DNA from: a virus
Reading direction: 5' to 3' (one strand)
Length of the DNA stretch: 41,840 bases
IMG/VR virus record: IMGVR_UViG_3300035204_000991
Coordinates: 1-41,840 of that record
The notes beneath the pieces were generated by a model. The model saw only the letters and a program-made list of their open reading frames with translations, had not been told where the DNA came from and did not search any database. The translations under genes and the position numbers were made by a program. Positions 3,309 through 41,840 of the stretch are shown here, one piece after another (positions within the stretch are counted from its first letter, which is position 1; the number at the start of each line of letters is the position of its first letter).

Positions 3309-3824
3309 TTAGGGTTGAAAATTATCACCGTTCACTAGGATATTGGTTTTGCCACCAACAACACCAGACCAAACGATACATTCTACTCCCGATTCTTTCA
3401 ACATCTCAATACCAATCGAAACTGATTCTTTCCATCTGTCCGGTGTTACGTCAAAGTATTGTTTATGCCCGATAACACGCTTGATACCACACTGTATAAT
3501 CGCCCTTGAGCAATCAGGACAAGCAAACCACGGGCAGTACATTGTCAGCCCTTCGGTTTTGATACCGAGTCGAATTGCTTTGTACAGGACATTTCTTTCT
3601 GCATGTTCAACATAACTGTATTTGAGAGGTCTCTCCCAGTATTCGTCTTTTACTTGAATAGAGTTGGGGATGTTGTTGGATTCCATACAAATGATAGCAG
3701 ATGTGTCATTCGTCAATAAGGCTGCATTTTGGGTGGATGGATCTTTTGATATATTCTTAGCATATTGGTATAGGTGTTTGAAATATACTGGGTGCATCGG
3801 ATCGGTTTGGATGTTATATGCCAT
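3309..3824 (-). CDS. Cytidine/deoxycytidylate deaminase family protein
   Basis: The 171-residue product has the zinc-deaminase signature: HAE at residues 74-76 (zinc His and catalytic Glu) and the zinc-binding CPDC at 102-105, followed by SRAIIQCGIKRVI, which aligns with the T4 dCMP deaminase segment CAKAIAQSGIKKLV. In T4-like phages such enzymes deaminate dCMP to dUMP and balance the pyrimidine pool. The usual PCxxC is ACxxC here, and the N-terminal regulatory zinc region of T4 Cd is not evident, so substrate (dCMP, cytidine or other) is an inference. The ATG at 3824 was chosen because GGAGG lies 9 nt upstream; it overlaps uvsY by 11 nt. The earlier in-frame start at 3875 would overlap uvsY by over 60 nt and lacks support. 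Confidence 0.8.
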   Translation of the reverse strand: MAYNIQTDPMHPVYFKHLYQYAKNISKDPSTQNAALLTNDTSAIICMESNNIPNSIQVKDEYWERPLKYSYVEHAERNVLYKAIRLGIKTEGLTMYCPWFACPDCSRAIIQCGIKRVIGHKQYFDVTPDRWKESVSIGIEMLKESGVECIVWSGVVGGKTNILVNGDNFQP

Positions 3825-4248
3825 TGGTGAATTTCCTCCACTCGATAGCGTTTTTGATTTCCCAGCCTCTTCCATTGATGCTTTTGATGATGGAAGCGAG
3901 ATAGTCTACTTTTTCTTGTTGGAGCGTGATCCTATCGGTCAACACAGAGACATCTTTGTCTGCGTATATGTACCTATCCAAATCTTGTTTGAGAACTTTC
4001 AACTGGAAGGGTTCCCACCCACGCTTGTTCAGTTCTTCTTCGGTCATTTTGCCAGAATAGAACTCCCATTTGTCTCGGAGGAGTTCTCTTTTCTCTGATT
4101 CCAGTTTCTTGAGGAAAAGCCTCTCGTCGTGGAATAAATTCAGGTACTTGTTGTGGAGTTGTGGTATCTTGATCGATTCCATATCGAGCATCGTATCGTC
4201 GATTATCACATCTTTAGCCACCATTTTACGAATATCATCTAATCTCAT
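3814..4248 (-). CDS. uvsY: UvsY-like recombination mediator
   Basis: The 144-residue product aligns along its length with T4 UvsY (137 aa), which loads the UvsX recombinase onto single-stranded DNA coated by gp32. Shared elements are the start MRLDDIRKMVAKDVIID (T4 MRLEDLQEELKKDVFID), the FYSGK segment at 63-67, the LKQDLDRYIYADKDV region at 86-100 and the C-terminal IKSINGRGWEIK...RKF. The ATG at 4248 fits the T4 start. An upstream in-frame TTG at 4266 would add six residues, but it overlaps the TTGAGG stretch that looks like part of the signal upstream of the ATG. A sigma70-like promoter ends 6 nt before the ATG. The next gene downstream is the deaminase, overlapping by 11 nt. Confidence 0.93.
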   Translation of the reverse strand: MRLDDIRKMVAKDVIIDDTMLDMESIKIPQLHNKYLNLFHDERLFLKKLESEKRELLRDKWEFYSGKMTEEELNKRGWEPFQLKVLKQDLDRYIYADKDVSVLTDRITLQQEKVDYLASIIKSINGRGWEIKNAIEWRKFTNGI

Positions 4249-8043: not shown

Positions 8044-8214
8044 TTATTCCTCATCGGTTGCTGAAATATCTGTTTTGGTAATATTAGCAGATATTTCATT
8101 TTTCTTGTTTTGTACATATTCACCGGTCTTTTGATATAGTATGTTTTGTGTTTCGGAGCGTGCAGCATCTAAGTTGTCGTTGCGTAGTGCGTTGATTATG
8201 TCTTCGGTACTCAT
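8044..8214 (-). CDS. Small prohead core protein, gp67-like
   Basis: This is a 56-codon gene starting MSTEDIINALRNDNLDAA and ending ISATDEE. The pattern DNLDAAR...IL..K.GEYVQNKKNEI matches the short core proteins in this place in marine T4-like phages ('DDLDAAK...L..K...ALDxKKxE'), which correspond to T4 gp67. T4 gp67 is an abundant internal core peptide needed for head shape. The ATG overlaps the previous stop as ATGA and has AAGGAATTTCACT before it, so the ribosome site is good. Its place directly before gene 21 supports the call. The family match is from memory and the protein is short. Confidence 0.7.
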   Translation of the reverse strand: MSTEDIINALRNDNLDAARSETQNILYQKTGEYVQNKKNEISANITKTDISATDEE

Positions 8215-17939: not shown

Positions 17940-18320
17940 CTAAAATACAGCCTCTACTTCATAATCTTCCAATAGGTATGAAATGTCCTTCAGTCCAGTT
18001 GCCGAAATTGTTATGTTTTCACCAAGCGAACTGATTTTGATTTTGTCCCACGACACGATAATTTCGGGCGTCAATGCTTTTTGAAGATCTTCGACGAATT
18101 TCTTCTTATTGTCGTTAGACATTTCAAATACACCTTCGTCCGTTTCCTCACTATAGGTCTTTAGGAGTTCTGTCTGAATACGTTCAATTTGCTCTAGATG
18201 GGGGTTGACATCCTGTAAGAATGATTTGAATTTGAGTGTTGTTTGGATAGGCAACGGTTCATTCAATAGATGTTTGAAAGTTGGATAAGATCTATACAAT
18301 TGTTCATAGGTTATTTTCAT
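17940..18320 (-). CDS. Small protein of unknown function, second of a pair after the spike gene
   Basis: The 126-residue product starts MKITYEQLYRSYPTFKHLLNE. The ATG at 18320 overlaps the previous stop as ATGA and has GGAG 7 nt upstream; an in-frame GTG at 18332 is less likely. It looks mostly alpha-helical, with acidic stretches and a helical region at about 30-90 (FLQDVNPHLEQIERIQTELLKT). There is no signal peptide, membrane segment or recognised motif. It lies between the fibre genes and gp13, where T4 has wac (fibritin), but is much too short and lacks fibritin-like repeats. It could assist folding or attachment of the fibres; this is a guess from position. Confidence 0.6.
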   Translation of the reverse strand: MKITYEQLYRSYPTFKHLLNEPLPIQTTLKFKSFLQDVNPHLEQIERIQTELLKTYSEETDEGVFEMSNDNKKKFVEDLQKALTPEIIVSWDKIKISSLGENITISATGLKDISYLLEDYEVEAVF

Positions 18321-18745
18321 TTTGTTCTCCACTTTTTGATCTTTTTAGACAATTCCTTTGCTTTGTCTGTAATATCTATATCACCAAATAAATGCTCCCA
18401 CATTGTCATAACTAATTCGTGTGTTGTGTACTCGTTTGGATCTTTTGGTTCTTGTGTCGTTTTTTCTGGGGTTGATTCGATAAGCCGTTTTTCTTTTTCT
18501 TGATCTTTCTGTACCATCAACAATTCAACTTCTCTTCGGATATACCGATCTCCATCCGGCCAAGGCATCGGTCCAGGCCGTTGATCTGAACCTGTGTAGT
18601 GTAGATGATGTACGTTAGGGATATATTCCTGTGCAACAACACCTTCTGGTAGAGCGTATTCTGGCTCGATCTCAAGAAAGAGTTCCAATTCAATTTTTCT
18701 GCTATTGATTGTTATTGTGCCATCGGCACTATGACGAAAAAACAT
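18317..18745 (-). CDS. Small protein of unknown function, possible fibre accessory or chaperone
   Basis: The 142-residue product starts MFFRHSADGTITINSRKIELELFLEIEPEYALPEGV and has the distinctive segment RPGPMPWPDGDRYIRREVELLMVQKDQEKEKRL (about 57-89), then a charged C-terminal half. The short beta-type N-terminus followed by a Pro-rich turn and a helix resembles small proteins encoded just after fibre genes in other phages, some of which are tail-fibre assembly proteins. I cannot confirm family membership. It starts 4 nt after the spike gene stop, with GAGG upstream, and overlaps the next gene as ATGA, so the three genes are translated together. Confidence 0.55.
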   Translation of the reverse strand: MFFRHSADGTITINSRKIELELFLEIEPEYALPEGVVAQEYIPNVHHLHYTGSDQRPGPMPWPDGDRYIRREVELLMVQKDQEKEKRLIESTPEKTTQEPKDPNEYTTHELVMTMWEHLFGDIDITDKAKELSKKIKKWRTK

Positions 18746-18749
18746 TATA

Positions 18750-20951
18750 TCATTCCTCTCTCACGTTGCTCCCATTTGCTGCCAATGTAGTACCACTTGT
18801 TTGTGTATCGGTGTATATTTGAGAATCAAAATCTGCATGATGACCAGTATATCCATCCGATGTGTTTGATGCAGTTGATCCGTGTACATTGATTGTAGAA
18901 TCTTTAAATGCCTTATACCCATCAAATTGATTGTATCGAGATGCACTATAGTCGGAGTCCATATAGGAACCTCGTAATACTTGATATCCACTTCCGGTAT
19001 TACCAACGCTTCTGCTGTAATCAACATAAGCATTTGAGTATCGTTCAGCATAGATACCATCTGGACCAGCGGGGTTGTGTCCAAATGGATGTGTGTATTC
19101 TACTGGAGATGACGCGATGCCGTTTCTATAAGATGAAAAGTAAAGACCTTTGAGACTTGACGAATTGGTGATTTTTACTCCAGAATGTCCGTTGTATGTT
19201 GCGCGGCCATCGCTTACGTCTGCTGACGAACTATCAGAAACATAAAAACCATTTACATCATTTCGGAATGCATACGAACCCGTCCGTTGGGACCAACCAT
19301 ATCTTTCATCTTCTACTGCGGCAGTACCACCGGCGCCAACCCATGTATACACATCATCTTTATAGTGGTTATGAAATTTTCCGGTTGAACTATCGCTTAC
19401 AGAAAAACCATTTCCGCCGTTGAAACAAGATAATGATCGACGGAAATTACCATATGAATTCTTTTGGATGTCTACGCCGTTGTGGAAATTAGAAGATGAT
19501 ATGGAATCGTCTGCCTCAATGGTACTGGATTCTCTAATAAGATAACCAGTACTACACCCAGAAACGATTGAAGAGTTCGCTATAATATTGCTACTATCTT
19601 CTACGAGAATACCATTATAACAAGAACTGACTATTGATCCTGATGCGTCAGCATTTGAATTTCGTTTTGTTGTAATTCCGTTCTCAAAACCAACAACACA
19701 CAAGTTCGTTGATGAGTTTAAAGATCCACTGTTTTGAATATTGATACCGTTTGATGAATCTTCGGGGGCAGTCCCACCCGACACACCAACAGCAAACCCA
19801 GGTCCACATACCACTAAATCTTGAATGCTGCCTAGGGCAGAACCATTTACTACGATCCCCGATCCACTATCAAAATTTAATCGACATGGATAATGTCGAA
19901 CTTCGATATCAGATCGATATGGTGAATACACGGTATCCCAAGTAATACCATCGGCGCCGTGAGTAGTATCTTGAACCCAGGTCACTCCAAAATTCCCAGT
20001 TGCTCCATCACCCGAATTACCATCGGTAGGAAGACCTCCTCCCCCAGCAGTCTTTCGGTTGCCGGTTGCACCATTAACCCATATATTGCCGTATATAGAA
20101 CCAACGGTATCGTTATCTTTGAACAAAGACGAGTTGGTGTTGTATCTCAGCCCTTGCGGCGTGATATAAGCAGTCGCTCCTGCACCAGAACCCCCCGAAT
20201 GGGTTCCGTCTGTTCCAAGTGGGTTGTCTTGTGTTGTAGAAAATGTTGTTGGGTTATAGTGTCGGACATGCACTAATACAGAATTTGCCTTTGTACCGTT
20301 GTTATTTGAATCGAAACCAATTACTTCGTGACAACCAAATGCTAAAGTTTTTCGCAGGGAGAGTAATCCATAATCCGACGTATATCCTGCACCATCCCCT
20401 TGTGCATATTCATAATTGAAATCTGTTTCTTTTCTGGTTGATCCAGTAACGCCTCCGGCATCATAAGAAGTATCTCTAATCGAAATGAAATCCCCAACTC
20501 TAACGTCGTCGATGTCTCCAACTAGAACTTCCAGTATGTATCCGCCAGTAGCACTGTCGCCCATTGCTCGCAATGAGGTATCATAATAACCAATTCCATA
20601 TAGGGAAAGCGTAGATGACACTTCACCTTTGATGTGGATTTGTGATGCTTGTGCGTGAGCAATGGAAACCTCACTCCCAGATATTTGATAATCATTCCAA
20701 ATTGTGGTGGATCTATCTACTTTTTGAATCTGAATGGTTACGGTTTTTCCCTTCTTGATTCGATATAAATCAAGAAAGGCTAACGCACCCGTCAATGTTG
20801 CAAAGGGATAATCAATAGAATTGAGTTGACCGGTCGTATCGTCCCCACCAGATCCAGTTACATAAACATAACTGTCTGTACTGATTACTTCTTGTATAAT
20901 AGAAGAATCTGTTGGTACGTTAATTGCACTGTTTGAATAATTGCAAACCAT
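18750..20951 (-). CDS. Beta-helix tail spike / fibre protein
   Basis: The 733-residue product opens with a sequence typical of pectate-lyase-like phage spikes (YVYVTGSGGDDTTGQLNSIDYPFATLTGALAFL, residues 32-65). From about 360 to 710 it consists of short repeats of the form 'NGxxVxxSSxxxxxxSxxxxN', rich in Asn, Ser and Gly, as expected for a right-handed parallel beta-helix. Such proteins bind or cut host surface polysaccharide. I see no clear catalytic triad, so enzyme activity is open. There is no collar domain and no obvious trimerisation tail. The ATG has AAGGA 12 nt upstream. A TATAAATA stretch abuts the start codon but is too close to act as its promoter. Confidence 0.8.
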   Translation of the reverse strand: MVCNYSNSAINVPTDSSIIQEVISTDSYVYVTGSGGDDTTGQLNSIDYPFATLTGALAFLDLYRIKKGKTVTIQIQKVDRSTTIWNDYQISGSEVSIAHAQASQIHIKGEVSSTLSLYGIGYYDTSLRAMGDSATGGYILEVLVGDIDDVRVGDFISIRDTSYDAGGVTGSTRKETDFNYEYAQGDGAGYTSDYGLLSLRKTLAFGCHEVIGFDSNNNGTKANSVLVHVRHYNPTTFSTTQDNPLGTDGTHSGGSGAGATAYITPQGLRYNTNSSLFKDNDTVGSIYGNIWVNGATGNRKTAGGGGLPTDGNSGDGATGNFGVTWVQDTTHGADGITWDTVYSPYRSDIEVRHYPCRLNFDSGSGIVVNGSALGSIQDLVVCGPGFAVGVSGGTAPEDSSNGINIQNSGSLNSSTNLCVVGFENGITTKRNSNADASGSIVSSCYNGILVEDSSNIIANSSIVSGCSTGYLIRESSTIEADDSISSSNFHNGVDIQKNSYGNFRRSLSCFNGGNGFSVSDSSTGKFHNHYKDDVYTWVGAGGTAAVEDERYGWSQRTGSYAFRNDVNGFYVSDSSSADVSDGRATYNGHSGVKITNSSSLKGLYFSSYRNGIASSPVEYTHPFGHNPAGPDGIYAERYSNAYVDYSRSVGNTGSGYQVLRGSYMDSDYSASRYNQFDGYKAFKDSTINVHGSTASNTSDGYTGHHADFDSQIYTDTQTSGTTLAANGSNVREE

Positions 20952-35673: not shown

Positions 35674-37536
35674 CTACGTTGGGTCTGTGCTGATTCCAGG
35701 TCTACCCCGCGAGGTTTCTACTGTAGTCTTTGCTTCGGTGATTGTTGATTCTGGATCGGTAGAATCTATCGTTAGTATTTGTTTTTGGGTGGCAAATATA
35801 TTGTTGTTTTGTGGTGTCGTTTTGATGGTTATGTATGTGTTGTTTGGGATGAAGAGCGGTCGGAAATCTTTAAGGGAAATTATGCCTTCTTTGTAATCTA
35901 CTACACCCACATCGTCTTTTCCTGTATAGAGTATCTCTTTGTTTCCTAACGAATCAAACGAGTATATTCTCATTTCTCCATATCCATCATCTTCGAGATA
36001 AGATAGACGAATAGCATTTTCATCGTCTTTCATCACAAAGATACTACTTGAAATTATAGGCGCATCGCCGTCACGATGATGTCGAATAGAATTCCCGAAT
36101 GGAATTTTATAGTTTGCTTCAACACCAACTCTCGGAGCAAATCTTTTTTCGAGTTGGATGCTGATTTCGTTGCCTATAATTGCTTCAGATGATGTGTCAA
36201 TGATCTTACTAAGTTTTGAGAAGTAGAGGTCTTTATCAAACTTTTCTAGATCCCCAGAAACATAATCGTTGATGGATTGATTGACAATAGATATCATTTC
36301 ATTTTTGGCTAATATGGTTTTTGCCGAGTCATATGTAAATTTGGTGTGTATTTTCATAAAGATGTAATCTGGATCAACGATCTCAGGAATCACAGAAACC
36401 ACATTTGATTGCTTCAAAATGTTTTCTGAAATGTCTCGTTTCTTCAATGTGTCTATGGTTAGACCACTTTTGGGTTTTATTGCAATAAACACCTTTCCGT
36501 ATTCTGGTGGGTCGTTTTCCTGACCACCCCAAACAACCACAGAATCAATATCTGGATAATCTCGAAGAAGCAACGCTTCATAGTCTCTGGTAGTTACGGA
36601 TCTATTCTGTGCTTGATAACTTTTGGGTGCGTAGAATTTAATGGAATTGTTTGATTCGGGATCACCGCCGCCACCGGCAGGCGAAATCACCTTTACGACA
36701 GTATCGCTATATTGGAATATTCTTGATCCTTCTTTGTCGGTTCTGCCGAATCCGTTCGCTTCGCCACCGCTCGTACTCAAATAATCAATGATGACTACAT
36801 TACCGCTCTTTGGTTTCTTTCCAACAATATCATCACCAAAGTAAATTTCATATTCACCAAGAGAAACTTCTTGGATGTGGAAGGCTTTGTCTTCTTTTTC
36901 GATTGTATTGAAATCGGACGATAGTTGCCATTTGTCTGCAAATCCCGTACTGTCCTCAATTGATTCCTGAATCCTGACATTTACAGTTGTTATGTCTGCG
37001 CTGCTTGGGATTAAAAACTTCTGATCTATGCTGTTATCGACGACATACGATATGTTTTCAAACGCGCCCTCTGCAACAACTATATTGATGGCTGCTATGT
37101 TTCCTTCTGAATCATATGTGTATGCTGCATCATCTAATGTTGAAAATAGTAAAGATGTGTTACCTTGTGTTCCTTGTATGATTGTTCCCTTTGGTATAGT
37201 ATCACCTACAACCTGCGGACCCGTAGCATAAAAGTCAACAATTGCTGTTGCTGCTCTAATAGAAGACGGCGTATACCCCAAATGCTTTGCAATTGAAACA
37301 ATGGAGTTTCGTTTCAAAGCACTATCGAGGAACATTTCGTTGGCTACCATATTAGTATAGAATGCCTGATAGTGTGTGTTGTACGACAACATATCCATCA
37401 GGATATTGATTCCTGCACCTTCAAAGTTGATGTCTTTAAATTCGTCTTGTTTACTGAGGTATTCTTTCAGATTCGATTTGATCGAATCAAAATCTAAATC
37501 AGACACCGACAGTTTTGCATTGAATCTTTCAGACAT
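35674..37536 (-). CDS. 6: Baseplate wedge protein gp6
   Basis: The 620-residue product (T4 gp6 is 660 aa) forms the inner ring joining wedges. The N-terminal region (FDSIKSNLKEYLSKQDEFKDINFEGAGINILMDMLSYNTHYQAFYTNMVANEMFLDSALKRNSIVSIAKHLGYTPSSIRAA, residues 16-98) is the hallmark of gp6/J-like wedge proteins. The middle has RSVTTRDYEALLLRDYPDIDSVVVWGGQENDPPEYGKVFIAIKPK. The ATG shares one base with the gp25 stop (TAATG), with AAGGA upstream inside gene 25. Confidence 0.95.
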   Translation of the reverse strand: MSERFNAKLSVSDLDFDSIKSNLKEYLSKQDEFKDINFEGAGINILMDMLSYNTHYQAFYTNMVANEMFLDSALKRNSIVSIAKHLGYTPSSIRAATAIVDFYATGPQVVGDTIPKGTIIQGTQGNTSLLFSTLDDAAYTYDSEGNIAAINIVVAEGAFENISYVVDNSIDQKFLIPSSADITTVNVRIQESIEDSTGFADKWQLSSDFNTIEKEDKAFHIQEVSLGEYEIYFGDDIVGKKPKSGNVVIIDYLSTSGGEANGFGRTDKEGSRIFQYSDTVVKVISPAGGGGDPESNNSIKFYAPKSYQAQNRSVTTRDYEALLLRDYPDIDSVVVWGGQENDPPEYGKVFIAIKPKSGLTIDTLKKRDISENILKQSNVVSVIPEIVDPDYIFMKIHTKFTYDSAKTILAKNEMISIVNQSINDYVSGDLEKFDKDLYFSKLSKIIDTSSEAIIGNEISIQLEKRFAPRVGVEANYKIPFGNSIRHHRDGDAPIISSSIFVMKDDENAIRLSYLEDDGYGEMRIYSFDSLGNKEILYTGKDDVGVVDYKEGIISLKDFRPLFIPNNTYITIKTTPQNNNIFATQKQILTIDSTDPESTITEAKTTVETSRGRPGISTDPT

Positions 37537-37922
37537 TATCGTATCCTTTCTATTGGCACCACAAGAGATTGAATAGTTGGGATACCTTGTACTTTAAATT
37601 CTATGGTAACTTCTAATCGATTATAGTCGTCATTTTGTATAACCGTCACGCGCTCAACATTTGCCCGTGGTTCATATAATCCAATTATCTCTTCAATTTC
37701 CTTTTTAATTTCAAACGCTGTTATTGGAGAAAAATTATCGAATAAGGAATGACGAACTTTCGATTGTATCTCGGGGTGGAATGGCTTATCAAATTTTCCG
37801 ATGAAAACAAGATTGCGTATGGATCGTTTTACCGCTTCGGTATCAAATTTATGCAAAATGTCACCGGTCAATGGATGCGGTTCTAAATCTAAATCAATAT
37901 CGGAATATTTTTTGTCTGTCAT
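37536..37922 (-). CDS. 25: Baseplate wedge protein gp25
   Basis: The 128-residue product (T4 gp25 is 132 aa) is the small wedge protein that initiates sheath assembly at the baseplate. It has the gp25-like layout: DLDLEPHPLTGDILHKFDTEAVKRSIRNLVFIGKFDKPFHPEIQSKVRHSLFDNF (11-65), EIKKEIEEIIGLYEPRANVERVTV (75-98) and a terminal beta segment IEFKVQGIPTIQSLVVPIERIR. It starts 4 nt after the GAF-like gene. An ATACATAGAGTAA stretch identical to the one at the 38609-38616 motif overlaps its start, but it is too close to the ATG to be its promoter. Confidence 0.95.
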   Translation of the reverse strand: MTDKKYSDIDLDLEPHPLTGDILHKFDTEAVKRSIRNLVFIGKFDKPFHPEIQSKVRHSLFDNFSPITAFEIKKEIEEIIGLYEPRANVERVTVIQNDDYNRLEVTIEFKVQGIPTIQSLVVPIERIR

Positions 37923-38617: not shown

Positions 38618-38905
38618 TCAACCGTTTGCGATTACATTGGGAGAATGAGTAGCACATTTTGATCCACAACAAACAGGATCACCCTTTCGTCCAACTTTCA
38701 AGTTGTTTGCGAATACGTTTGGCGAACCATCACAAAGAACCGAACCATGACAAGGTGGACCACAGCAATGTGGTGCCCAACTATCTGTTACTCTATGTAC
38801 AGGAATGTTGTTTGCAAATACATTTGGAGAACCCTGATTGTTTGGTCTTGGCGGATAACAATCGTGTCCCGTACCAATATCACCCTTTCTATGAACTTCT
38901 GGCAT
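38618..38905 (-). CDS. PAAR-motif spike tip protein
   Basis: The 95-residue product has the repeated PAAR-like pattern SPNVFANN at 26-33, SPNVFANN at 61-68 and SPNVIANG at 88-95, with HRVTD and GRKGDP turns between. PAAR proteins form a small cone that sharpens the tip of the central spike in contractile tails (T4 gp5.4, 97 aa) and coordinate a metal. This copy has eight cysteines (16, 47, 48, 52, 58, 79, 80, 84) and several histidines, more than needed for one metal site. The ATG shares a base with the previous stop (TAATG) and has AAGGAG upstream. Confidence 0.88.
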   Translation of the reverse strand: MPEVHRKGDIGTGHDCYPPRPNNQGSPNVFANNIPVHRVTDSWAPHCCGPPCHGSVLCDGSPNVFANNLKVGRKGDPVCCGSKCATHSPNVIANG

Positions 38906-39618
38906 TATCCGTAACTCCTTACTATTATTTTTCCGTCTGCACCATCAGCGCCTATGTGCCTACTAGGAACTCCAAATTTTCTACCACCACCGCCACCACC
39001 GCCTGGTTGTGTTCCTGTATCTGCATCTCCACTTGCCCAGGCACCTTTACCACCCGCTCCACCATTGGGGTCTGCACCACCTCCACCACCACCACCGTCA
39101 TTTCCTTGATCATCTTGACCATTATTACCGTCTGTGTTTATATCTGCAAATGTTGCTACACCACCATCGCCACCATCACCACCCAATGAACCTATGCTAC
39201 CACCACCACCGCCGCCTGCTTCTATCCCGAAATTTGTTATTGTTGTACTATCTCTTTTATGATGATCTAATGTTGTGTCATCTCCATCATCCCCCGCATC
39301 CCCCGTTGTTGTTCCGCCAGCACCACCCGCACCAACTTGCATTATTAATGTGTCACCAGATCGCATATCTTCTGCACCATAATAGGTTTTCTTACAGTAT
39401 GCTCCGCCACCACCGCCGCCACCCGAATAATATGTTGCACCACGACCACTTCCTGTAACACTTCTTGCGGCACCACCACCACCACTCCCCCACAATTCAA
39501 TTTCAATATACACTACCCCCGATGGAATAGTATAGGTTTGACTTCCCGTACTTGTATACGTTTGAGTATCAAGAAGTTGATATTGTCTTGTACTTGCGGC
39601 TTTGGCAATTCCTAACAT
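38905..39618 (-). CDS. Glycine-rich adhesin-like protein
   Basis: The 237-residue product has a short N-terminus, then YTIPSGVVYIEIELWGSGGGGAA (about 24-46), a core made largely of poly-Gly runs with Ala, Asp, Thr and Asn, and a C-terminus ending GADGKIIVRSYG. This is the pattern of glycine-rich domain proteins in which beta strands frame polyglycine helices, as in the gp38 adhesin at the fibre tip of some T-even phages. It lies between the Cys-rich fibre and the PAAR gene with a strong AGGAGG site. Receptor binding is a reasonable inference. It has only one cysteine, unlike its neighbours. Confidence 0.7.
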   Translation of the reverse strand: MLGIAKAASTRQYQLLDTQTYTSTGSQTYTIPSGVVYIEIELWGSGGGGAARSVTGSGRGATYYSGGGGGGGAYCKKTYYGAEDMRSGDTLIMQVGAGGAGGTTTGDAGDDGDDTTLDHHKRDSTTITNFGIEAGGGGGGSIGSLGGDGGDGGVATFADINTDGNNGQDDQGNDGGGGGGGADPNGGAGGKGAWASGDADTGTQPGGGGGGGRKFGVPSRHIGADGADGKIIVRSYG

Positions 39619-39626
39619 ATTTCCTC

Positions 39627-41840
39627 CTAACTAAAATTCATCCCACCAACAAACCCATAATAGGTTGATCCCCCATCTACAGTCAAGAACGACAACACAT
39701 CCAGTCCCGTCGATAGTGTGGGTGCAGTGCCGCCCGCCCACAGTATTGTCTCGGTGTTGCCTACTGCTGCACACCCATTACAAAACAAACACTCGTCAAA
39801 AGTAAACCCCGCACCATTTTCAATATATACCGTCATTAATCCTGCTTGTCCAGACGGTGGCGCATCATAAATATACAACGAACAGTTCGGTGGTATCGCA
39901 GCACCAGTAGCGGATATCCGTTGAGTGTTACCATCTTCAAACCCAAAGAAACCAATGTAGAATTCTTCATAATCTTTTAGTGATTCGGTGTTGTTTTTTA
40001 ATGTGGGTTCTATCATATCATTGCCCAACATTCCACCCGAACTTGACATCGTAATACCATCATTGAAAATAACTGGTCCGGTAATGCCTATCCTGTTAGG
40101 AACTGCACTCACGAACTCAAAATCACTTGTGCCACCAACAGTTCCATTTTCGTTATATGCGATTCTTACGTCATCAGGACCAAAATCTTCTAATTCATCA
40201 ATTACAGGGCCCTGTGGTCCGACAGGATAATCTGATGGGGATATCTTCCATCCTCCAGTTACAGCACTTCCCGAATGTTGTAGGTGGGAACCATTAACAG
40301 GTTGAATGTTATCGTCAATATCAGCCATTTCAGTTAGATATAGATCATCGACCGATATCCGAATAATGTTGTTAGCCTCATTGGTGTCTAGTTTGATATT
40401 AGAACCAGACACAAACGAAATGATCCCACTATCCCTAATATACCCATCCGAAGAAACGGTAGCAGTTAATGATCCTTTGATTATTTTAGTGGTGGACCCT
40501 GCATTTTCGTAATTTGGTTTCCCTAACCTATCAGAATCCAACAACCCACTAGACGAATACCACGAATATCCTCCAAAGGCGGAGTAGGGCCCTTCTCCCG
40601 GATCTATAGTTTTTAGTTTTTCGTTTGTGGTAAAATTGATAATTTGAAAATTTACATCAGCCTGGACTATTTCTATTGGGTCGGGGACGATTGATATTTC
40701 TTTAGTGAGTTGTGCGTTTGTTCCTAATACTCCATCGTCATTTAAATTTCTAGGAGTGGGAGAGTTGCAATCTGGTATATCGCATGGGCATTCGCCAAAC
40801 TCATCTTGGCAAGGAGAGTTTAAATCATCTTCACAACGAGAAAGACACCCATTGGAACCGGGACCACAATCCCAACACATATCCTGGCACTCCCGACAAT
40901 GACACACTTCCTCGACGCATTCACAATCTGGGGGCGATCCACTGCACTCCAGGCACCCCCCATTGAAACATGCCACTTCATCGTCCCCACAATCAACGGG
41001 GCAGTCAGTAGTGACGACCGTTGCGCAAGCAACCCCTCCTCCGTGCGGAACACCACAATGTGGTGTCCAGAGAGCCGCACCACACACATTTTCACACGGA
41101 TCTATGCAAGGAGGGCATAAATTACCCGTACACGCGAGCCATTCATTCCTCAACCCACAATAATAAGAACATTGACAATCATCTACACCATTCGCGCCCA
41201 TATCACCTTGACACTTGGTGTGGACCGTGCCGCCGCCGTCCAACGGAATTTCTCGCTCTAAGCAGTCACACGGGCAACCGGGTCCGCCCCCGCCCCCGCC
41301 GTCATCTGGTGGACACCCGGTCATCGGCCTCCGTGGTTTTATTAGTTCATCATCCTCACAGTACATGTGACTCGCAGGAACATACGCACAACAGGGATAA
41401 TCGCTGGGTGTGTCCCCACAACAATGGAGTGAACAGGCAGTCCCACAACAGTACTGTTGTCTGAGATCCCCTGTACACGGGTCGTAAACTTTTGGACATG
41501 GACAATCGCCGTCTGCGCACACAGGTTGTCCACTCGCTGGGGTTCCATCAGCATTTCTGGGGCAACACTTATCACCATAACAAAATTCTGTATAATCATT
41601 ACAACATTCATTATTACCACAACATGTTTCATTCGCACCACAACATTTATCACCACAACACTCTTCATTCTCAATGTGACAACATTCATCACCACAACAC
41701 TCTTCATTATCATTACAACATTCATTATCATTACAGCAATCTTCACATCCACAATTATCACCGCAGCATTCTGATGTATTGCAACATGTATCACCACAAC
41801 AACTTACTTCTGGTCCGTCCGGACCCACGAAGAGTCCTTC
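39627..41840 (-). CDS. Cysteine-rich fibre-like structural protein, 5' end outside the window
   Basis: The frame is open to the window edge; the visible start would be a GTG at 41828 but EGLF precedes it in frame without a stop, so the gene probably begins upstream. About 737 residues are visible. The first ~355 hold about 70 cysteines: a tandem array of short CCGDxCC/CCNDNE units (about 10-90), then more loosely spaced Cys with Pro, Gly, Asp and a poly-Gly run. The second half is ordinary fibre-type sequence (NIIRISVDDLYLTEMADIDDNI; VGPQGPV) and ends LSTGLDVLSFLTVDGGSTYYGFVGGMNFS, like the C-terminal tip of many marine phage fibres. The Cys region could be disulfide-bonded or bind metal; neither can be decided here. 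Confidence 0.7.
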   Translation of the reverse strand, partial: EGLFVGPDGPEVSCCGDTCCNTSECCGDNCGCEDCCNDNECCNDNEECCGDECCHIENEECCGDKCCGANETCCGNNECCNDYTEFCYGDKCCPRNADGTPASGQPVCADGDCPCPKVYDPCTGDLRQQYCCGTACSLHCCGDTPSDYPCCAYVPASHMYCEDDELIKPRRPMTGCPPDDGGGGGGPGCPCDCLEREIPLDGGGTVHTKCQGDMGANGVDDCQCSYYCGLRNEWLACTGNLCPPCIDPCENVCGAALWTPHCGVPHGGGVACATVVTTDCPVDCGDDEVACFNGGCLECSGSPPDCECVEEVCHCRECQDMCWDCGPGSNGCLSRCEDDLNSPCQDEFGECPCDIPDCNSPTPRNLNDDGVLGTNAQLTKEISIVPDPIEIVQADVNFQIINFTTNEKLKTIDPGEGPYSAFGGYSWYSSSGLLDSDRLGKPNYENAGSTTKIIKGSLTATVSSDGYIRDSGIISFVSGSNIKLDTNEANNIIRISVDDLYLTEMADIDDNIQPVNGSHLQHSGSAVTGGWKISPSDYPVGPQGPVIDELEDFGPDDVRIAYNENGTVGGTSDFEFVSAVPNRIGITGPVIFNDGITMSSSGGMLGNDMIEPTLKNNTESLKDYEEFYIGFFGFEDGNTQRISATGAAIPPNCSLYIYDAPPSGQAGLMTVYIENGAGFTFDECLFCNGCAAVGNTETILWAGGTAPTLSTGLDVLSFLTVDGGSTYYGFVGGMNFS
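41561..41801 (-). repeat. Tandem CC-G-x-x-CC repeats in the cysteine-rich fibre gene
   Basis: The region encodes about seven short units built on CCGDxCC or CCNDNE, 6-13 residues apart. At DNA level the repetition is also strong: a 21-bp block occurs exactly at 41649-41669 and again at 41688-41708, 39 nt (13 codons) apart. This suggests recent expansion by slippage or unequal recombination. Confidence 0.85.

Follow-up and report, generated by a model that had tools for sequence, protein, structure and literature searches.

Tandem fibre-like proteins with a cysteine-rich stalk encoded among the baseplate genes of an apparently T4-like, uncultured marine-type phage

Introduction

Phage fibres are normally built of beta-helices, coiled coils or collagen-like repeats, and they contain few cysteines. 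A gene at the end of an uncultured viral record encodes a fibre-like protein in which about one-fifth of the residues of a long section are Cys, which raises the questions of whether this section belongs to a tail fibre and what its cysteines do. The window analyzed in this study is the whole of the IMG/VR record IMGVR_UViG_3300035204_000991 (41,840 bases, linear). Because the complete record is linear and of this length, the window is a genome fragment.

Results

Cysteine-rich section of the window protein

The open reading frame at 39627–41840 on the minus strand comprises 737 visible codons with no internal stop, and its 5′ end is open at the end of the window. Its features are as follows.

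39627–41840, minus strand: C-terminal 737 residues of Cys-stalked fibre-like protein 2; open frame cut by the window end, with the start at position 8142 of contig L002
41715–41840, minus strand: stretch of 126 bases identical to L002 10506–10631, forming the join to the missing 5′ half
41559–41801, minus strand: array of CC pairs, residues 14–94, with loops of 3–6 residues and three exact CCGDxCC units
40767–41801, minus strand: visible Cys-rich stalk, residues 14–358, containing 72 Cys, delimited by Cys counts and orthologue conservation
40335–40415, minus strand: block of highest conservation within the fibre domain, FVSGSNIKLDTNEANNIIRISVDDLYL, residues 476–502, without Cys, identified by alignment; a related domain occurs on the Cys-poor fibres L195 and L196
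39771–39791, minus strand: small Cys insert in the tip, CLFCNGC, residues 684–690, present in ORF2-type proteins (window and L135 ORF2) and not in the ORF1 type
39627–39770, minus strand: fibre tip GGTAPTL...GGSTYYGFVGG, residues 691–737, weakly matching phrog_19200 (E 0.009) at residues 691–733

The extreme Cys richness described in an earlier, sequence-only reading was borne out: residues 1–365 contain 72 Cys (19.7%) in a frame supported by orthologues, and the median over the open reading frames of the window is 0.4%. The same residues contain seven His, and no HxH motif, the iron-binding type found in the T4 gp37 fibre, was seen on inspection of the 737-residue translation. The first 95 residues contain 27 Cys and 12 CC pairs, compared with 5.8 pairs expected from shuffling, and only one in 20,000 shuffles reached 12. 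Over all 365 residues, 15 CC pairs were observed versus 11.8 expected, which is not far above chance. Chance pairing was thus clearly ruled out for the first 95 residues and not for the whole section. The arrangement had been read as tandem CCGDxCC units; the strict unit occurs only three times, and what holds is that CC pairs follow one another irregularly, most of the loops between them being 3–6 residues long. When IMG/VR was searched for the exact CCGDxCC pattern, it was found in frame only in L012, which is the same contig as L002. Elsewhere in the window, positions 3312–3875 encode an unrelated 188-aa protein with 3.2% Cys that is conserved in contigs G002 and G003.

Join to the adjoining contig and the tandem paralogue

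Contig L002 (IMGVR_UViG_3300035204_001168) was found by a search with the window protein, and its last frame ends in the 126 bases that are identical to the start of the window minus strand. Because of this identity, L002 is considered to supply the missing 5′ end, with the start at 8142. The join lies in 126 bases inside a repeat-bearing gene, and it is supported by G002, which encodes two complete fibres of 1472 and 1602 aa side by side. The composite protein is about 1525 aa long with 134 Cys, and a complete orthologue of 1602 aa is encoded at L135 9059–13864. A GTG at 41828 was ruled out as the start codon, since the 5′ half of the gene was found on L002. The Cys-rich section with which the visible frame begins is thus not the N-terminus of the protein: a helical domain, a collagen-like repeat and more Cys precede it on L002. 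Immediately after the 126 identical bases, L002 (10632–10666), compared with the window (41615–41714), jumps ahead by 75 bases without a change of frame, which may reflect either a repeat-collapsed assembly or a real length variant of the CC array.

Upstream of this gene, L002 carries a complete tandem paralogue, ORF1, of 1489 aa with 137 Cys, the C-terminal part of which is 37% identical to the window protein (ORF2).

Conservation of the cysteines

Between the ORF1 orthologues of L135 and L002, all 127 stalk Cys were kept, with 51% identity at the other residues and saturation of synonymous sites. Between the ORF2 orthologues, 102 of 119 Cys were kept, with 40% identity elsewhere. Cys was the most conserved residue type in both proteins. 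Because aligners favour Cys matches, the Cys were masked and the proteins were realigned; 122 of the 127 Cys were still matched in ORF1, and the number fell markedly in ORF2, to 79 of 119. Judging from these alignments, the cysteines are selectively retained, the case being strong for ORF1 and weaker for ORF2, the window's own protein, because its array has more gaps. An artefact or a wrong frame was ruled out, since the orthologues preserve the frame and the cysteines while synonymous change is saturated.

Family, architecture and distribution

Members of the family were gathered by a DNA pattern of the CC module, a profile of the N-terminal domain and a profile of the fibre domain, and the family was found on at least eight further uncultured contigs, with up to 269 Cys per open frame. 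The pattern and the N-domain profile yielded members on G002 (two), G003 (two; 134.8 kb), G004, G009 (incomplete, 241 Cys), G010 and L141. The fibre-domain profile added L194, an incomplete open frame of 2429 codons with 269 Cys, and L193, a C-terminal fragment.

In all members complete enough to judge, the parts follow the same order from the N-terminus: a helical N-domain (consensus IEIPFxxLTNEQRxAI...), collagen-like Gly-x-y triplets, a GACC repeat, the Cys-rich stalk, a fibre domain (consensus FVSGSNIxLDTNEAxNIIRISVDDL) and the tip. At least four consecutive Cys-free Gly-x-y triplets were present in eight of nine members, and matches to Pfam Collagen were sub-threshold (7e-4 to 0.1). The stalks are 490–770 residues long and contain 17–22% Cys in local CC-pair repeats; they are acidic, and the composite stalk has seven His in 492 residues. 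The N-terminal domains also hold a few conserved Cys. In the ORF2 type, the N-domain bears an insert of ~250 residues (L002 ORF2, residues about 66–330) that includes GYHTHTIEGVDYYMPNGLGGAGSGIQFHGTYG and looks similar, by eye, to the beginning of the Cys-poor fibres L195 and L196.

The stalk matched no known domain in Pfam, PHROGs, NCBIfam or PDB, so that the array did not prove to be a common, characterized domain, which would have spoken against the earlier reading. Neither the N-domain nor the stalk had a credible relative in the isolate phages searched, where the tip alone has relatives, and a search of one genome per GTDB species gave no credible relative of the N-domain. Two other viral contigs encode extremely Cys-rich proteins, L016 1080–5456 (281 Cys in 1459 aa) and L079 4280–7111 (194 in 944 aa); the former contains 13 STIG1 (PF04885) stretches and a sub-threshold MXAN_6577-like match.

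Gene neighbourhood and phage affiliation

In the window, the fibre gene is followed by genes for tail and baseplate proteins.

38905–39618, minus strand: Gly-rich tail-fibre-associated protein (Gly_rich_2 / phrog_863), the syntenic downstream neighbour
38618–38905, minus strand: PAAR spike-tip protein, 8 Cys in 95 aa (PF05488, E 7.8e-10; phrog_281, E 3.8e-25)
37536–37922, minus strand: gp25-like baseplate wedge protein (PF04965; phrog_261)
35674–37536, minus strand: gp6-like baseplate wedge protein (phrog_219, E 6e-163), 35–38% identical to those of Kyanoviridae phages

The order on the window side is fibre 2, Gly-rich, PAAR, gp25 and gp6 genes; on the L002 side, genes for a hub protein (phrog_350), a Gp5_OB protein and a small protein of 267 aa precede fibre 1 and fibre 2. 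Wherever it is visible, the fibre locus thus lies within the tail and baseplate cluster, flanked by Gp5/hub genes on one side and by the Gly-rich, PAAR, gp25 and gp6 genes on the other. Both G002 (68 kb) and G003 (134.8 kb) show this baseplate-fibre block in the same order, the whole window is colinear with them, and the order from Gp5 to the fibre recurs on G004, G009 and G010, which end inside the fibre. The earlier remark that the PAAR neighbour is also Cys-rich holds for the count (8.4%), and the protein is otherwise an ordinary PAAR_motif / phrog_281 protein. The portal protein is 54% identical to cyanophage portals, and gp6 is closest to those of Kyanoviridae phages. The source is assigned to the uncultured marine-type T4-like (Kyanoviridae-like) phages. 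Between the hub and gp5 genes, L035 (6385–7791; G003 17944–19347) encodes a 468-aa protein whose C-terminal part matches the deoxyribonucleotidase family phrog_2643 and whose N-terminal part matches phrog_5268; proteins of this type occur in G003, G004, G009 and G010, with no match in G001 or G002.

Fibre tip and modularity of the stalk

The tip of L002 ORF1 matched phrog_24774, phrog_7760, phrog_9017 and phrog_19200 with E values from 2.3e-8 (best) to 5.5e-5, and tblastn connected it to fibre proteins of isolates at up to 4e-5. These matches, together with that of the window tip to phrog_19200, uphold the description of the window protein as fibre-like with a phage fibre tip. The Cys-rich part is accordingly placed as a stalk between the N-terminal domain and the fibre domain plus tip, in a gene of the baseplate cluster.

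Related fibre domains occur on proteins of other phages (L195 and L196) that contain 3–4 Cys, and the stalk is therefore regarded as a separable module. In the lineage of L044, L062, L074 and L081, a 910-aa protein with 129 Cys and a different N-terminus is encoded beside gp5 (L081 4358–7096); the genes downstream of it encode a 293-aa protein, a tail fibre whose tip is similar, and a Gly-rich protein. The 910-aa protein is apparently a separate-gene version of the Cys-rich part. A search with the pattern CCPxGxxCCG detected in-frame modules of this kind in bacterial proteins, some of which (L177, L180 and L181) have N-termini that by eye resemble export signals.

Structure models

The AlphaFold model of the window protein was poor (mean pLDDT 36.7), and only residues about 61–95 and 110–140 reached pLDDT 56–71, as short paired strands. 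The N-domain of L135 ORF1 was modelled as helical with a mean pLDDT of 73.6. Comparison of this model with PDB folds gave no credible match (best E 0.05, TM below 0.2). A Foldseek search of BFVD retrieved DUF7217 proteins (E 4.7e-5, TM 0.53/0.61, prob 1.00, rmsd 8.3), and weak profile matches to DUF7217 / phrog_2114 were obtained for 7–8 of nine members (best E 3.2e-4 / 1.5e-4). Because the best DUF7217 score (20.7 bits) is below the curated cut-off of 29 and an hhalign comparison with the Vi01 protein was not significant, the two may be only remotely related. The stalk had no match to Granulin in Pfam or PDB sequences.

Discussion

Role of the cysteines

We consider it fairly probable that these proteins are disulfide-stabilized tail fibres that lie near the baseplate and whose stalk becomes a rod of hairpins on release. 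This reading builds on the gene, its architecture, its synteny and the selective retention of its cysteines, all of which were observed. Two long fibre-like proteins encoded in tandem would be mounted at or near the baseplate of the virion, each chain consisting of a helical anchor, a collagen-like segment, a GACC repeat, a Cys-rich stalk of 490–770 residues, a fibre domain and a receptor-facing tip. Because no export signal is evident, the chain should fold and trimerize in the reducing cytoplasm, presumably through its collagen-like and C-terminal fibre parts. When the cell releases the phage, oxidation of the closely spaced CC pairs would yield successive beta-hairpins braced by disulfides, similar in principle to granulin, and the stalk would become a stiff, protease-resistant rod of variable length from the baseplate to the tip. 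With such a stalk, the fibre-like ends, the position among baseplate genes, the retention of Cys and the similar modules on exported-looking bacterial proteins would all be explained. Against this reading stand the low overall confidence of the window model, the lack of PDB or Granulin matches for the stalk and the fall in matched Cys when those of ORF2 were masked; moreover, searches of these contigs, which are incomplete, detected neither thioredoxin nor DsbA. We suggest more tentatively, with slightly less than even confidence, that an uncultured T4-like lineage has in this way acquired a new rod element with about 50–60 disulfides per chain, reduced in the cytoplasm and oxidized on release, with CC units being gained or lost to adjust its length.

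The selective retention of Cys by itself would look the same if the clusters held metal. A stalk binding Zn, Fe or Cu, whether the metal served a structural purpose or baited host uptake receptors (Ferrojan horse), would retain Cys as ligands; iron bound through HxH motifs has been reported in T4 gp37 and proposed for marine phages (PMC11705849), and the adjoining PAAR protein is also Cys-rich. Such a stalk is nonetheless unlikely, given the seven His in the 492-residue composite stalk, the many CC pairs with 3–6-residue loops, which are unlike HxH sites, the presence of similar modules on exported-looking bacterial proteins and the dozens of metal ions per chain that the Cys number would imply. 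The exported-looking CCPxGxxCCG proteins of bacteria, the acidic stalk, the short paired strands and the precedents of phages Milano and 7-7-1 would favour disulfides. Taken together, the sequence features point to a stalk built on disulfide bonds, metal being the less likely basis.

If disulfides form, they could also be reversible, locking the fibre or baseplate until their reduction at the host surface permits contraction, as has been suggested for Milano, whose contraction in vitro needed DTT and guanidine and whose receptor-binding proteins are disulfide-linked to the baseplate (PMC10811340). The fibre genes adjoin baseplate genes and the N-terminal domains hold a few conserved Cys, as such a switch would have it. 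We regard it as quite improbable, since nearly all Cys sit in the local-repeat stalk and not at putative interfaces, which favours structural bonds within the chain, and no reductase gene was seen in the contigs. An Erv1/Alr search gave no match in the contigs and none in its positive control, and it is therefore uninformative. Finally, the protein might lie outside the virion as a surface-sticking protein released by lysis or a decoy with a borrowed fibre tip; the family is known only from uncultured contigs, and the Cys-rich part is a separate polypeptide in the L081 lineage. This is very unlikely, with the tandem fibre genes lying inside a conserved baseplate operon and a single chain comprising stalk, fibre domain and tip.

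Comparison with known systems

The C-terminal tip is like those of the families phrog_24774/7760/9017/19200, which include the fibre of Prochlorococcus phage P-TIM68 and Roseobacter phage CRP-603, whereas the N-terminal domain and the Cys-rich stalk were absent from all isolates found to carry these tips. The Cys-stalk architecture is known in no cultured phage. The statement of the sequence-only reading that no such phage fibre has been described agrees with the family libraries and the open-access literature searched, outside which most subscription-journal papers fall. Studies restricted to cultured phages would miss the module, as none of the isolate phages searched contains it. A conserved stalk of one-fifth Cys, if confirmed, would represent a different route to fibre rigidity. 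With it, one could test whether virions become oxidized before or after release, or else marine phage tails would prove to be heavily loaded with metal.

The N-terminal domain resembles the ~240-aa Ackermannviridae proteins of DUF7217 / phrog_2114 such as Vi01_142c; the Vi01 protein stands alone, two genes from a gene annotated as tail completion, whereas the domain here is fused. STIG1-like and MXAN_6577-like repeats likewise form very Cys-rich proteins on large viral contigs (L016, 281 Cys), but the repeat is different, with a PF04885 match only in L016, and no fibre domain was seen. The hairpin stack of granulin (PMC7463432) shares the closely spaced CC pairs, and the partly confident region of the model shows paired strands; the Cys spacing here is irregular with no Pfam or PDB match, and any likeness in fold is tentative.

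The closest precedents in virions are the Agrobacterium phages Milano, with 2.1% Cys in its structural proteins and disulfides linking sheath, baseplate and receptor-binding proteins (PMC10811340), and 7-7-1, with a disulfide-networked virion including a capsid network (PMC12796354). They are myophages with Cys-enriched structural proteins, as is proposed here. These phages are partial exceptions to the earlier generalization that virion proteins are rarely so Cys-rich, at about 2% Cys and not at 20%. In Milano and 7-7-1, Cys make up about 2% of the structural proteins and the reported bonds are largely between chains, whereas the stalk described here contains 17–22% Cys arranged in local CC-pair repeats.
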